Source: Sedimenticola sp. (GTDB lineage: Bacteria; Pseudomonadota; Gammaproteobacteria; Chromatiales; Chromatiaceae). From it: 33,179 bases of DNA. Below the pieces are notes generated by a model. The model saw only the letters and a program-made list of their open reading frames with translations, made no database searches and was not told the DNA's origin. Both the position numbers and the translations under genes were made by a program. Shown here in pieces: positions 13,890-20,259 of this stretch (within the stretch, counting starts at the first letter, position 1; every line of letters begins with the position of its first letter). The stretch is taken from the NCBI GenBank assembly GCA_026196795.1, contig JAPHUE010000160.1, positions 1 to 33,179 on the forward strand, in the 5' to 3' direction.

Positions 13890-14234
13890 GTGAGCAATAT
13901 CATTCAGGAACTTGAAGCCGAGCAGATGAACCGAGAGGTTCCCGATTTTGGCGCCGGTGACACCGTTGTAGTACAGGTGAAGGTTGTCGAGGGTACCCGC
14001 GAACGTCTGCAGGCCTTTGAAGGTGTAGTCATTGCCAAGAAAAATCGCGGCTTGAACTCATCTTTCACCGTACGCAAGCTCTCACATGGTGAGGGTGTCG
14101 AGCGTGTTTTCCAGACCTACAGCCCGTCTGTTGCTGAAATTCAAGTGAAGCGTCGTGGTGATGTTCGTCGCGCCAAGTTGTACTATCTGCGTGGTCGTAC
14201 CGGTAAGGCTGCACGTATCCGCGAGAAGATCTAG
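13890..14234 (+). CDS. rplS: 50S ribosomal protein L19
   Basis: L19 lies at the 30S-50S interface. The product is 114 residues from a GTG start at 13890, which has GGAG upstream at 9 bases and gives the family N-terminus [19 protein letters not shown]. The rest has [40 protein letters not shown] and the ending [19 protein letters not shown]. It is the last gene of the operon and is followed by a strong terminator. Confidence 0.98.
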
Positions 14235-14260: not shown

Positions 14261-14293
14261 AAAAAACACCCCGCCTCGGCGGGGTGTTTTTTT
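14261..14293. terminator. Strong bidirectional Rho-independent terminator
   Basis: A perfect 10-bp GC-rich stem (ACACCCCGCC/GGCGGGGTGT, 2-base gap at the tip) is flanked by six A on the left and seven T on the right. It can terminate rplS from the left and the convergent minus-strand gene from the right. Confidence 0.95.
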
Positions 14294-14305
14294 ACACAAT
14301 AACCA

Positions 14306-15436
14306 TTAGTCATTAACGTGCAGGTCGATTCCCTTTGTCTGTTCCATGATCTGTATAGCGCTTTCCAGGTCGACCTTATCCGGATTTTCCGGACTTTGGG
14401 CATTGAGCTGATCGAAAAGCGTCTGTTGTTCCAATGTTGCTCGCTTACCATTTGCCAGTTGGTAGTAGGCTGCCCAAGGTACGAATTTGGTCAAGGGGAA
14501 CAGCTGGCCAGGATTGGGTGAGATATCGATATTGATACCGGAAATCAGTAGCAGATTTTTACCTCGGAATTCACGTTCACGAATAATCGACCGATAGGCT
14601 CGGTCAAATTCAATCTGGGAATTGACTTGTGCTGCGGCCAGTGTGGGGTAGGGTGAAGTAAGAATCTGCGGCATGCTTTTGCTGAGATTGCTTTCCAGAT
14701 GATTGGAACCCTCTTTGGTGATGGCATGCTCTCTCCTGAAGTGGAAAAGGTCATCACTTAGCCGTTCACCAATCACCTGCTTCTGTTTTTCGCTCAATGT
14801 CAGGTTGCCAAGCCGGGGTAGAAATTCCTGATTAAGATAAAAAGCCTTGGATGTGCTGAAGATCTGCAGGGGCTTGATCCGTCCGGGTGTCTCCTCGTCA
14901 ATGATCTTTCCAAGATCCAGTATCAGTCCCTGTTTGCGTTCAATATCGAGTAGTTGGTTATCAACAATGACAGCAGGTCTGTTATTAATCAGCATGAAAG
15001 CGATATTGTTTTTGGCGAATTCAAATTCTGCTACATACCACTCCAATATTTTACTGATTTTCCCGCAGGCTGGTGTCGATTCATGATCGTGCCGTTGGAG
15101 TCGGCGATAACTGCCAAAGATATCTTCTTCTGGATCATAGCCCACATGGCTTGCCTGAATAATAACCAGGTCTTCACCGTGGTGGGCATGCGGGGCATGT
15201 CTGTCGGTAGCGACAACACCGCCTACAATGCCATGGTTGAATGGAAATGTGCCGAAGTGCTTGGCGATAAGAATGATCGGGAAACCCTGGCTCTCGTCTG
15301 AACAAAATGCCCGGGAGGGCATTATCTGGCCAGGCCTGAAGCCGAGCGATTTGCAGAGGTTATAGAGCCTGGGAATGAAGCTGCTATAACGCATCGTCAA
15401 GCCCTTGATATGGAAATCACCCATTACGTGCGGCAT
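14306..15436 (-). CDS. LCIB-type (theta-like) carbonic anhydrase family protein, putative
   Basis: The 376-residue cytosolic protein has no signal peptide. Its N-terminal third resembles the limiting-CO2-inducible protein B/C domain, a zinc beta-CA-like fold. Numbering from this start, there is C45-S-D47-E, a D78-R79 pair in GGVVATDRHAPH, H97 in ASHVGYD, and C124 in DHESTPACGK. A Cys...Asp/Arg...His...Cys set in that order is how this family binds zinc. Some members hydrate CO2 and others are inactive. The rest (about 150-376) is helical with no motif I recognise. The ATG at 15436 has GGGGA 7 bases upstream; a GTG at 15460 is an alternative. The gene is single, between rplS and divergent sbcB. 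The assignment is from memory of the motif pattern; function in CO2 handling is inference. Confidence 0.55.
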   Translation of the reverse strand: MPHVMGDFHIKGLTMRYSSFIPRLYNLCKSLGFRPGQIMPSRAFCSDESQGFPIILIAKHFGTFPFNHGIVGGVVATDRHAPHAHHGEDLVIIQASHVGYDPEEDIFGSYRRLQRHDHESTPACGKISKILEWYVAEFEFAKNNIAFMLINNRPAVIVDNQLLDIERKQGLILDLGKIIDEETPGRIKPLQIFSTSKAFYLNQEFLPRLGNLTLSEKQKQVIGERLSDDLFHFRREHAITKEGSNHLESNLSKSMPQILTSPYPTLAAAQVNSQIEFDRAYRSIIREREFRGKNLLLISGINIDISPNPGQLFPLTKFVPWAAYYQLANGKRATLEQQTLFDQLNAQSPENPDKVDLESAIQIMEQTKGIDLHVND

Positions 15437-15582: not shown

Positions 15583-17019
15583 ATGACTTTCACATTCTAT
15601 TGGCATGACTATGAAACATGGGGCGCTGATCCCCGTAAAGATCGAGCGGCACAGTTTGCCGGGATTCGTACAGATGCTGAACTGAATGTGATAGGTAAAC
15701 CACTGAGTATCTATTGTCAGCCGGCAGATGATTTATTACCCCAGCCACAAGCCTGTCTGGTCACTGGAATAACGCCACAAAAAGCCCGTCAAGAGGGGGT
15801 TAATGAGGCGGAGTTTTTCAGAGCAATTCACCAGGAGATGGCTCAGCCGGGGACCTGCGGAGTGGGTTATAACAGTGTACGATTTGATGATGAGTGTACC
15901 CGTTTCGGGTTTTACCGCAATTTCTATGACCCCTATGCACGTGAGTGGCAGAATGGAAATTCCCGTTGGGACATCATCGACATGGTCAGGCTTACGCATG
16001 CCTTGCGGCCTGAAGGTATTGTCTGGCCAAAGCGTGAGAATGGCGCAACCAGTTTTCGTCTGGAGGAATTAACCCAGGCTAATGGCATAACCCACCAATC
16101 AGCACATGATGCCTTGTCCGATGTGTATGCCACCATTGAGATGGCCAGATTGGTACAGCAGCAGCAACCCCGCCTGTTCAGTTATCTACTCTCATTGAGG
16201 AATAAGCGAAAGGTAGGTGAGCTGCTTAATCTGAAAACACAGACGCCTGTGCTGCATGTCTCATCCATGTACCCGGCTGAAAAGGGTTGTATTGCTCTGG
16301 TGATACCGGTGGCGAAACACCCGACAAATCCGAACGGGGTTATTGTCTATGATCTTGGGGTTGATCCTCGTCCCTTACTCGAGCTGGATGAAGAGACCAT
16401 TCATCAACGGTTATTTACTCCCCGTGATCAGTTGCCGGCAAGTGTTGAGCGTATACCGCTAAAGACAGTTCATCTCAATAAGTGCCCCGTCATTGTTCCA
16501 CTGAATACACTCACAGATCAGGCCGCTGAACGCTGGGCTATCGACATATCCCAGAGCTTGGCGAATGCTGAGCGGATCAGGCAGGCCGGCCATCTGGCCA
16601 GTAAGATAGAGGCCGTACATAACCGACAAGCCTTTGATCCCATTACTGACCCTGACCAAAGTCTCTATTCAGGTGATTTTTTTAGCAAGGATGATCGGAG
16701 TCGGATGGATCGTATCCTGACCGCCACACCAGAGGCGCTGGCAGGAATGGCGATGGCATTTGATGATCCGAGACTGCCTGAGATGCTATTTAGGTACCGT
16801 GCCCGTAACTGGCCTGAGAGTCTCACTGTCTCAGAGCGTGAGCGATGGCAAGAGTATCGTATGGATCGGCTGACGTCTGTTGACGGTGGGGGCAGTATAA
16901 CCCTGAAGGTTTTTCAGCAGGAGTTGGCCCGTCTGATGGTTGATCCCGCCCTTTCTCCAGAGAAAAAACAGATTCTATCCGAGCTGGCCGACTGGCCGGC
17001 GCTGATCAATGTGGCTTGA
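15583..17019 (+). CDS. sbcB: Exodeoxyribonuclease I
   Basis: ExoI degrades single-stranded DNA 3'-5' in recombination and mismatch repair. The 478 residues match the 475-residue E. coli enzyme in length. DEDDh catalytic motifs are visible: motif I FYWHDYETWG with D and E near residues 9 and 11, motif II GYNSVRFDDE near 98, and motif III THQSAHDALSDVYATIEM near 175. The supporting stretch DRAAQFAGIRTD is also typical. The SH3-like and C-terminal helical domains follow, ending PEKKQILSELADWPAL. The start ATG has only a weak ribosome site. It is monocistronic, with a 10-bp hairpin after the stop. Confidence 0.97.
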   Translation: MTFTFYWHDYETWGADPRKDRAAQFAGIRTDAELNVIGKPLSIYCQPADDLLPQPQACLVTGITPQKARQEGVNEAEFFRAIHQEMAQPGTCGVGYNSVRFDDECTRFGFYRNFYDPYAREWQNGNSRWDIIDMVRLTHALRPEGIVWPKRENGATSFRLEELTQANGITHQSAHDALSDVYATIEMARLVQQQQPRLFSYLLSLRNKRKVGELLNLKTQTPVLHVSSMYPAEKGCIALVIPVAKHPTNPNGVIVYDLGVDPRPLLELDEETIHQRLFTPRDQLPASVERIPLKTVHLNKCPVIVPLNTLTDQAAERWAIDISQSLANAERIRQAGHLASKIEAVHNRQAFDPITDPDQSLYSGDFFSKDDRSRMDRILTATPEALAGMAMAFDDPRLPEMLFRYRARNWPESLTVSERERWQEYRMDRLTSVDGGGSITLKVFQQELARLMVDPALSPEKKQILSELADWPALINVA

Positions 17020-17482: not shown

Positions 17483-18118
17483 TTACTCTGCTCCATTGCG
17501 CAGCAGAAGTCGCAGTATGTCCTGATCGCCCTGCTGTTTCGCAATGGTAATGGGTCTCTCTCCTGTTGTATTGGCAAGGTTGACGTCAGCGCCACTCTGA
17601 ATCAGTAGTTTGACCATGAGACGATTTCTGGCGGAAATTGCTGCCGTCAGTGGGGTTTCACCGGCGGCATTCGGCTGATTGATTTTTCCGCCTAACTCCA
17701 TCAGCAGGGGAATAATATACCGGTCAGTAACCCCGGCGCCAACGGCTAGGTTAATGAGTTGGGTTGGGTCATGTTTTGCCCCCTGCTTGATTAGATATTC
17801 GGTTATCTGGGCATGCCCATTTAAAACGGCCCTATCAAGCGGGCTATATTCTTCTTTATCAAGGACATCAATATCTGCGCCGCTCTTAACCAATAGCTTT
17901 ACGATGATGTAGCTGCCCTGGGTTGCGGCAAGATGAAGGGGTGTTTCGCCGCGATTATTTGGCCGGTTGATATCGCTGCCTGTCTGAACATGACGCTCGA
18001 TCTGGTTGATATCGCCGCGCTCTACGGCCAAATTGAGTGCAATCGTAGGCTTGTCAGGCTCAGAGCAGCCAGCAAGGAGTAGGGCGAACAGCATTGTAAA
18101 CCACTTCAATTTATTCAT
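17483..18118 (-). CDS. Ankyrin-repeat lipoprotein
   Basis: The 211-residue protein has a lipoprotein signal (MNKLKWFTMLFALLLAGC) with the lipobox LLAGC at residues 14-18, so it should be lipidated at C18 and anchored in the envelope. The rest, about residues 25-210, is roughly five to six ankyrin repeats, for example RGETPLHLAATQGSYIIVKL, then YSPLDRAVLNGHAQITEYLI and AGETPLTAAISARNRLMVKL. Ankyrin repeats bind protein partners, and here the partner is unknown. No clear ribosome site precedes the ATG. The upstream gene is divergent (about 70 bases away). Confidence 0.9.
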   Translation of the reverse strand: MNKLKWFTMLFALLLAGCSEPDKPTIALNLAVERGDINQIERHVQTGSDINRPNNRGETPLHLAATQGSYIIVKLLVKSGADIDVLDKEEYSPLDRAVLNGHAQITEYLIKQGAKHDPTQLINLAVGAGVTDRYIIPLLMELGGKINQPNAAGETPLTAAISARNRLMVKLLIQSGADVNLANTTGERPITIAKQQGDQDILRLLLRNGAE

Positions 18119-18663: not shown

Positions 18664-20259
18664 ATGTCGTTAGCCAGAGCTGTTATAAAATACTGCTACC
18701 GTCTGGAAGACTCCCCGCGTTACAAGCGTGTAAAACGCTTCGTTTTTGATCTATTGGAAAATCCGCAGGCTCGTATCAGGCCCTATTTCGACATCTTCAT
18801 GATTCTGCTGGTGCTCTCCAGCGTATTTGTTCTGATCTATGAAGTGAAAGAGGATTTAGGTGTACCCAGCCAGATTTTTGAGCTTTGTGCTGTGGTGATA
18901 TTCCTTACCGAATACCTGCTCCGATTCTGGCTTTACAATGACAGCCATCGCATTTTTATCGAGCACTATGAAAGAGCACAATTTGTTGATCAGCCCTTTT
19001 CGCTGTGGCCGCCCCTGAAAGAGGTTTTGCAGAAAAAGTGGGCTTATATGACAACTCCGCTGGCTGTAATTGACCTGCTCGCCATTATTCCCAGTTATCG
19101 GCCCCTCCGTTTTCTTCGAATTTTCCTGCTGTTTCGTTTATTTAAGTTATTTCGCTATGCCCGCAGTATTAATGAATTCGTTAAAGTACTGACTGAAAAG
19201 CGTTTCGAATTTTATACCCTGGGAATTTTCCTTACCTTTGTTGTCTTTACGGCGGCTTCGGCGATCTACTTTTTTGAAGCGAGAAGTGAAGGTGGCGAGA
19301 TTGAGAACTTCTTCGATGGTATTTACTGGGCTGTTGTAACCATATCGACCGTTGGTTATGGCGATATCACGCCGATGACCACGGAAGGCCGGATGATAAC
19401 GCTGGTGCTGATTATCTGCGGCATTGGTGTGATTTCGTTTACTACTTCGGTCATTGTTGCTGCGTTCACAGAAAAAATGAGTGAACTTAGGGATAACCGG
19501 GTATTTGCCGAGCTGGAAAAACATAAAACCAGGCATATTATCATTTGCGGCTTTGGTCGAGTGGGGCTGGTGGTCGCTGAAAGATTGGCTGCCAGTAAAG
19601 AACGGTTTGTCGTGATTGACCCAGATGCCGAAAACATCGCGCATGCTAAAAGACTGGGGTACCTCGGTATTCAGGGGAATGCCGAAGATGGTGAGTTGCT
19701 GATCCAGTCAGGTATTCAAGAGCGAGCTGAACGAATTCTTTGCCTGACCGGCAGTGATGTGGTGAATGTCTATATCACCTTAACTGCTCGTGATCTGAAT
19801 CCTGATATCGAGATTATCTCCCGTGCGAATAACAAGGCATCGATACGCAAGCTCTACCAAGCAGGTGCCAATCATACAGTCGCCCCTTTCAAGGCGGTAG
19901 GAGCGATAGCCGGAGAGTATATTGGCCAGCCTGTCGCCTTTGAGGCGATTCATGGAATATTGTCTGGTCAGAATGGGATTGGTTTGGAGACAGTGACCGT
20001 TAGACCTGAATCCACTCTTGAAGGACGCACGATTAGCGAAGTCGACTTTGCTGGCTACAAGCTGATCCTGTTTGGTGTGATCAGCCATCTGGATCGCGAT
20101 CCCGATCACGATACCATTGCCTATGATTTGAAGTGGAAGCGCATTCACTTTAATCCTAAGGCCGGCTTTGTTTTAAACGGTAATGATCTGCTGGTCCTTA
20201 TTGGTCATGAATACAGTATTACTCACTTTAAAGATCGACTCGAAAGTGGAGCGCTCTAG
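18664..20259 (+). CDS. Voltage-sensor-like K+ channel with RCK (TrkA-N/TrkA-C) domain
   Basis: The 531-residue inner-membrane protein has S1-S4 (about 42-165), pore helices S5-S6 (about 183-270) with selectivity filter TVGYGD (229-234), and a cytoplasmic RCK domain. S4 (about 146-167) carries Arg or Lys at every third position (R146, R149, R152, R158, K161, R164, R167), the pattern of a voltage sensor. The RCK part has a nucleotide-binding turn GFGRVG (296-301), with a following VVIDPDAENIAHAKRLG. A TrkA_C region (about 440-531) ends the chain. It belongs to the Kch/MthK-like ligand-gated K+ channels. No clear ribosome site precedes the ATG. A free-standing RCK gene starts 1 base after the stop. 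Confidence 0.93.
   Translation: MSLARAVIKYCYRLEDSPRYKRVKRFVFDLLENPQARIRPYFDIFMILLVLSSVFVLIYEVKEDLGVPSQIFELCAVVIFLTEYLLRFWLYNDSHRIFIEHYERAQFVDQPFSLWPPLKEVLQKKWAYMTTPLAVIDLLAIIPSYRPLRFLRIFLLFRLFKLFRYARSINEFVKVLTEKRFEFYTLGIFLTFVVFTAASAIYFFEARSEGGEIENFFDGIYWAVVTISTVGYGDITPMTTEGRMITLVLIICGIGVISFTTSVIVAAFTEKMSELRDNRVFAELEKHKTRHIIICGFGRVGLVVAERLAASKERFVVIDPDAENIAHAKRLGYLGIQGNAEDGELLIQSGIQERAERILCLTGSDVVNVYITLTARDLNPDIEIISRANNKASIRKLYQAGANHTVAPFKAVGAIAGEYIGQPVAFEAIHGILSGQNGIGLETVTVRPESTLEGRTISEVDFAGYKLILFGVISHLDRDPDHDTIAYDLKWKRIHFNPKAGFVLNGNDLLVLIGHEYSITHFKDRLESGAL

Follow-up and report, generated by a model that had tools for sequence, protein, structure and literature searches.

A long-form LCIB-type protein of Sedimenticola and related Gammaproteobacteria as a probable carbonic anhydrase of carboxysome-free carbon acquisition

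A gene of Sedimenticola sp., found in the 33,179-nucleotide stretch of DNA analysed here (referred to as the window), encodes a long member of the LCIB/LCIC group. To judge from its sequence, the protein is most likely a zinc carbonic anhydrase (CA) of the beta type, serving carbon acquisition without carboxysomes, a reading held with somewhat better than even confidence. The protein matches the LCIB_C_CA family, retains residues that are invariant among its long relatives and has the architecture of a distinct subfamily. An association with carbon genes is also observed: in related bacteria the gene tends to go together with genes for dissolved carbon uptake, and on this ground it probably has a role in CO2 supply.

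The open reading frame is real and conserved. In the open-reading-frame list it runs on the minus strand from an ATG at 15436 to a stop that ends at 14306, giving 376 codons. Starting instead at an in-frame GTG (15460) would lengthen the protein to 384 aa, but the ATG is favoured because the copy of Sedimenticola selenatireducens (L002) also begins MPHVMGDF. The closest named relative of the protein, 87% identical, belongs to Sedimenticola selenatireducens BK-1, of a lineage placed in Gammaproteobacteria, Chromatiales, Sedimenticolaceae, and the group is sulfur-oxidizing. Compared with L002 (protein 87% identical), 168 codons differ silently and 50 with replacement; dN is 0.097 and dS is saturated. 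The gene and the element next to it are as follows.

14306..15436, minus strand: coding sequence of a long-form LCIB-family protein, 376 aa (open reading frame, PF18599 match, relatives, 33-row alignment and mostly silent changes)
14272..14293, plus strand: terminator-like hairpin with a T run between rplS and the LCIB-like gene (stem 14272-14286)

On one side lies rplS, a plus-strand gene whose end is at 14234 and which is convergent with the LCIB-like gene. A link with rplS was rejected: the two genes converge, the hairpin lies between them (three terminator-like hairpins were found in the region, against 1.3 expected by shuffles), and among the neighbourhoods compared the order recurs only in the same-genus copy, so rplS is regarded as an incidental neighbour and the window gene appears to stand alone. 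On the other side, an exonuclease-I-like gene, named by reading its translation, lies at 15583 on the plus strand and is divergent from the LCIB-like gene. A promoter-like site at 15500-15472 was set aside as being at chance level (2 found in the region against 2.3 expected). Beyond the exonuclease gene, two translations read by eye as an ankyrin-repeat lipoprotein (17483-18118, minus strand) and a potassium-channel/TrkA-like protein (18664-20259, plus strand).

Assignment to the LCIB type had been made in an initial annotation, which called for an HMM search against LCIB_C_CA and gave the accession, PF18599, correctly. The search bears the assignment out, PF18599 being the sole Pfam family above cut-off for the window protein (26.3 bits, gathering threshold 25, E 5.2e-6).

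15035..15388, minus strand: PF18599 LCIB_C_CA match, residues 17-134 against profile positions 4-122 of 223 (Pfam, and 0 of 200 shuffles)

The match spans about half of the profile and not the whole domain. In six-frame genome searches the window gene scores 23.9 bits for PF18599, under the cut-off, as do several of its relatives. These relatives were gathered in an alignment (A1) of 33 full-length long-form rows from 32 genomes, which leaves out fragments and broken copies (L024-L031), duplicates (L001, L003, L038), a canonical LCIB (L032) and L043; scanned singly, all 33 members match PF18599 at E up to 1. When the N-terminal profile of the long family was compared with three canonical LCIBs, its score was reached by none of 200 column shuffles. 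The hhalign probability was 2.5% against one canonical LCIB, 56.6% against three and 79.4% when only the N-terminal parts were set against the three; in global mode it was 0.1%. The window protein had no match in an NCBIfam scan, no significant match among solved structures (PDB) by phmmer or profile search, and no Pfam match to CsoSCA (PF08936) or DabA (PF10070). Pro_CA (PF00484) is absent from the two Pfam families reported at E up to 10, a setting in which the filters drop most weak matches. AlphaFold2 gave a pLDDT of 33.9 for the window protein alone (one row) and 34.1 with one relative added (two rows).

Placing residues onto the solved LCIBs is our own reading of alignments and draws on sequence only. 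The following positions are considered to form the putative active site.

15302..15304, minus strand: C45, putative first zinc ligand, followed by S46 (32/33) and D47 (33/33); aligns with C-S-D of PtLCIB4 (PDB 5b5y)
15197..15202, minus strand: R79-H80, invariant; H80 aligns with PtLCIB4 H88 (conservation, PDB titles, alignment and our own residue counting)
15146..15148, minus strand: H97, putative zinc ligand in SHVG, 33/33; aligns with SHVG of 5b5y and PHVG of 6kfs
15101..15106, minus strand: R111-R112 (31/33 and 33/33), candidate active-site Arg; aligns with RRG of 6kfs and 5b5y
15065..15067, minus strand: C124, putative third zinc ligand in a C-G motif, 33/33; aligns with CCG of canonical LCIBs

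Twelve positions (C45, D47, E48, R79, H80, H86, H97, G99, Y110, R112, C124 and G125) are identical in all A1 rows, and D78 is Asp in 30 of them. The motifs listed in the initial annotation, C45-S-D47, D78-R79, H97 (in ASHVGYD) and C124 (in HDHESTPACG), all lie where it had put them and are conserved to this extent; H80 and R112, which it did not list, are invariant as well. F44 is not invariant across the whole long-form family, since L043 (G233), outside A1, reads SRALCSD. The N-terminal 135 residues would hold the site, with C45, H97 and C124 as the putative zinc ligands. D47 would be the Asp of a beta-CA-like dyad, and H80 and R112 would be supporting residues. PDB entries exist for the PtLCIB4 mutants S47R and H88A: S46 is the position altered to Arg in the first, and in the alignment H80-x-P82 falls on the H-x-P that contains H88. 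H80 and R112 may also correspond to the His and Arg called important in algal LCIB; in inactive LCIB homologs, His162/161 and Arg194/193 are reported to be disordered (PMC5876011).

The initial annotation had also described about 220 extra C-terminal residues in the window protein. These are not peculiar to it: A1 members align end to end, including the C-terminal ~220 residues, and the region is common to all 33 full-length relatives. Because it is conserved among them, the long relatives are regarded as a distinct subfamily.

14468..14554, minus strand: conserved C-terminal block, residues 295-323 (LLLISGINIDISP..GQLFPLTKFVPWAA), with invariant D304, S306, P307, F313, P320 and W321

Over the 33 A1 rows, A322 and A323 are invariant in addition to the six residues of the block. 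Residues 295-323 may be the counterpart of the stretch that closes the canonical LCIB domain. An alternative hhalign alignment of the C-terminal part to canonical LCIBs is collinear and in the expected place; the comparison with three canonical LCIBs is not above chance, with a score of 9.4 against a shuffle median of 12.3 and 187 of 200 shuffles as high. The long form may thus consist of an LCIB domain interrupted by an insert of ~100 residues, or of half an LCIB domain fused to a new part, and the conserved C-terminal 240 residues would complete or extend the domain.

Carriers of the gene were found in 27 of the 146 genomes sampled from the window's taxonomic family, a count that includes fragmentary matches (G013, G046, G113, G116, G134). 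In the class sample, PF18599 matches occur in 13 of 369 genomes. Twelve of these, the window's genome counted, show the long frame, open over 371-427 aa from stop to stop; the thirteenth is a canonical 246-aa protein scoring 255 bits (G261, L032). The only match among 398 genomes of the phylum sample was the window's own, and the viral contigs searched held no relative of the window protein. Canonical LCIBs sought in four genomes of the canonical member's family were found in one, the already-known case. Altogether 38 carriers were examined, 27 in the window's family and 11 outside it. Apart from the 87% copy, A1 members are 47-59% identical to the window protein. Within the same genus the gene is present in two of the six sampled genomes and missing from four, so that gain or loss is frequent. 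One genome (G138) has a broken LCIB remnant in three matched pieces (L079, G138:C1:1739894-1740762) where sister genomes keep an intact copy (L049, L050), and has an intact copy of its own elsewhere (L053).

Conserved site residues are also found in LCIBs for which no activity is seen: Chlamydomonas LCIB-type proteins with the zinc motif intact have been reported inactive (PMC5876011). The window protein could likewise be a non-catalytic relative that may bind zinc and serves transport systems as their partner, scaffold or sensor of CO2/HCO3-, comparable with the barrier proposed for LCIB-LCIC in Chlamydomonas. Such a role would fit a protein of which over half is a conserved region specific to the subfamily. 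It would also fit genomes that are already provided with an ordinary beta-CA: Pro_CA is matched in 14 of the 27 family carriers (two marginally) and in the window's own genome, which carries RuBisCO too. Retention of Ser at position 46 and the invariance of H80 and R112 argue against it, as do PtLCIB3 and PtLCIB4, which are said to appear constitutively active (PMC9614477). A purely non-catalytic protein is considered rather unlikely, and a catalytic long-form LCIB is preferred.

Evidence for the setting in which this carbonic anhydrase would work comes from the relatives. No operon around the LCIB gene is conserved across all relatives in the neighbourhood comparison. In G067 (L048), one strand carries a NuoM-like PF00361 gene (cut by the edge of the sequence stretch examined), DabA (PF10070, 752 bits), a NuoL-like PF00361 gene, two further PF00361 genes and then the LCIB gene, which starts ~95 bases after the last PF00361 gene. 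The G047 copy is divergent from SulP and NuoM-like genes and from the first part of DabA, at the end of the contig. The G359 copy is flanked by a PF00361 gene and a SulP gene, all three being on one strand and separated by 32 and 129 bases. A SulP gene is found within 5 kb in five of the 38 carriers, from four genera (G036, G029, G126, G047, G359), where 0.43 would be expected given how many SulP genes the genomes have and how large they are. The contig of G024 that has the LCIB gene also has cbbL (~2 kb away), a LysR-type-like regulator (by reading) and CsoSCA.

Several other features of these loci were noted. Long DabA (~1100 aa) and four PF00361-type genes form a conserved operon (L048:2890-11999; Pfam on the L048 copies, tblastn elsewhere) that is also seen in L082-L084, L086-L089, L093-L096, L100-L104 and L131, and a SulP gene stands at its start (L065, L091, L102, L103, L131) or its end (L086, L087). 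A CitMHS/TrkA_C transporter lies within ~6 kb of the LCIB gene in L051, L055, L056, L059 and L067 (Pfam on the L056 copy), in L059 only 3 bases upstream on the same strand. A histidine kinase and a sigma-54 response regulator lie upstream on the same strand in L051, L052, L053 and L067 (Pfam on the L051 copies). In G016 (L054:9760-18895) the LCIB gene converges on the genes of a membrane complex of several subunits, in which PF00361 was found and which reads by eye as energy-converting hydrogenase-related or Nuo-like.

At the level of whole genomes, any DabA is found in 20 of the 27 family carriers against 50 of the 119 non-carriers (p = 0.003), and in 23 of the 38 carriers overall. None was found in the other 15, which include the window's genome and eight of the 11 that lie outside the family. 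The DabA locus was examined in 21 of the 23 DabA-positive carriers (18 in the family and 3 outside, leaving G013 and G099), and all 21 have a long DabA with specific neighbours, the other 20 proteins being 47-60% identical, in the best piece, to DabA of G067. All five operon markers are present in 14 of these loci, while six are cut by contig ends (G001, G005, G014, G047, G060, G134) and G116 has DabA and the NuoL-like gene and lacks the last two markers though its contig continues. Among the non-carriers with DabA, one locus was examined in 40 of the 50, further copies in the same genomes not being counted; seven loci are of the long-DabA type (50-57%); in the remaining 33, DabA shares no more than 44% identity with that of G067, and DabB, where seen, is at 27-36%.

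The long-DabA operon type is therefore found in 20 of the 27 family carriers, a count that takes G013 and G099 as long type without locus inspection, against 7 of the 119 non-carriers, or 9 of 119 with G096 and G118, which belong to the ten whose locus was not examined and were assigned by score and length only (p ~1e-12). Counted by genus it is 10/14 against 3/47 (p = 2.5e-6), where one of the ten carrier genera (g13) rests on a DabA fragment without locus inspection and shared ancestry of the genomes is handled only partly. Mapped on the LCIB tree, the DAB label takes 6 changes, where shuffles give 11.2, and because it is clustered in this way close relatives are counted more than once. Seven genomes have the long-DabA operon type without the LCIB gene (three g7, two g21, one g59 and one g2). 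CsoSCA, the mark of alpha-carboxysomes, is found in one of the 27 carriers (G024) against 52 of the 119 others (p = 3e-5), and in complete genomes in 0 of 14 against 48 of 105. The role in inorganic carbon handling put forward in the initial annotation gains support from the relatives, through the association with DabA and SulP. In the window's genome (G000, 78% complete) no known carbon gene was seen adjoining the gene and no DabA (PF10070) was found; none was found either in the same-genus carrier (G061, 99% complete).

Two simpler associations were considered, of which the one with RuBisCO was rejected. Within the family RuBisCO is found in 19 of the 27 carriers against 107 of the 119 others (p = 0.013, in the opposite direction to a simple link), and in complete genomes in 13 of 14 carriers against 96 of 105 non-carriers; outside the family it is found in 9 of 11 carriers, a figure that has no matched control. 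Replacement of the ordinary beta-CA is weakly indicated, with Pro_CA in 14 of 27 against 91 of 119 (p = 0.016); complete genomes alone give 9 of 14 against 85 of 105 (p = 0.17).

For long-form LCIB we infer zinc binding, catalysis, location, direction and partnership along the following lines. The enzyme would interconvert CO2 and HCO3- in the cytosol of cells that mostly lack carboxysomes. In the relatives the accompanying toolkit would consist of a DAB complex, made of long DabA and several Nuo/Mrp-like proton-antiporter subunits, and of SulP anion transporters; in the organism of the window, whose genome yielded no DabA, the protein would act with other transporters or alone. Beside a DAB complex, an LCIB-type protein could recapture leaking CO2, as is proposed for algal LCIB (PMC5876011), or feed CO2 to RuBisCO. 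More tentatively, and with clearly less confidence than is given to the enzyme itself, long-form LCIB could be the soluble CA of a carboxysome-free CO2-concentrating system of chemolithoautotrophic Gammaproteobacteria, built around the antiporter-rich long-DabA DAB complex and SulP. It would then be a bacterial counterpart of the algal LCIB role and would take the place of the carboxysomal CA.

A closer tie has also to be weighed, in which the protein is a dedicated subunit of the long-DabA DAB complex and adds a second CA-like site to vectorial CO2 hydration. The strong co-occurrence with the long-DabA type speaks for it, together with the position of the gene behind the operon in G067 and the divergent pair in G047; these are the only two of the 21 carriers with an examined DabA locus in which the gene is beside the operon, no DabA was found in 15 of the 38 carriers, the window's genome among them, and g7 has the operon without the gene, all of which makes a fixed subunit improbable. 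It is just as improbable that the protein is an enzyme of another kind whose LCIB/beta-CA zinc site has been turned to some other substrate, its link with carbon genes reflecting only shared lifestyle or lineage. For this speak the Pro_CA already there in 14 of the 27 family carriers, the lack of a conserved operon overall, a conserved C-terminal block for which no counterpart scores above chance, and one more invariant His (H86) close to the site. Against it, residues known to matter in LCIB are retained, and in several genera SulP, DAB, or RuBisCO together with carboxysome genes are found close to the LCIB gene.

LCIB is key yet poorly understood in algal CO2 uptake, and some of its forms are active while others are inactive. 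The bacterial branch described here has retained the residues of the site and has a conserved half in addition; it accompanies a particular DAB operon, seldom occurs with carboxysomes and so provides a simple setting for asking what LCIB-type proteins do beside a carbon pump. The gene also leads to a type of DAB operon with four PF00361 genes beside DabA. In literature searches limited to open-licence papers, no description was found of a bacterial long-form LCIB or of such an antiporter-rich operon. Theta-CA and LCIB are related. Given this relation, and because a survey of the DIC toolkit counts theta-CA among the CA genes of prokaryote genomes (PMC10880623), an LCIB-group CA in bacteria is probably not new in itself.

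Among known systems, Pro_CA (PF00484) and CsoSCA (PF08936) are expected to have Cys-His-Cys zinc chemistry in common with the window protein. The window protein differs from both in having no Pfam match to them, and CsoSCA is nearly absent from the sampled family genomes that carry the gene (1/27). DAB/DAC complexes, made of DabA (PF10070) and DabB (PF00361) and represented by DAB1 and DAB2 of Halothiobacillus, are alike in the cell function that the association suggests, but the window protein has no PF10070 match and DabA was not found in its genome. DabA2 is described with a beta-CA-like zinc site and DAB2 as a membrane-potential-coupled system of vectorial CO2 hydration (PMC13144422); PF00361 genes are more numerous in the long-DabA operon of the relatives than in the two- and three-subunit DAB complexes described there. 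The closest likeness is to LCIB_C_CA proteins such as PtLCIB4 and Chlamydomonas LCIB/LCIC (PDB 6kfs, 5b5y, 5b5x, 5k5w, 9vzj), with which the window protein has in common the order and context of Cys-Ser-Asp, His-x-Pro, His-Val-Gly, Arg-Arg and Cys-Gly, along the N-terminal 120 positions of the Pfam profile. It differs from them in that only half of the profile matches, in its length (376 aa against 246 aa for the canonical bacterial member L032), and in that the long-form gene adjoins DAB or SulP genes in several relatives.
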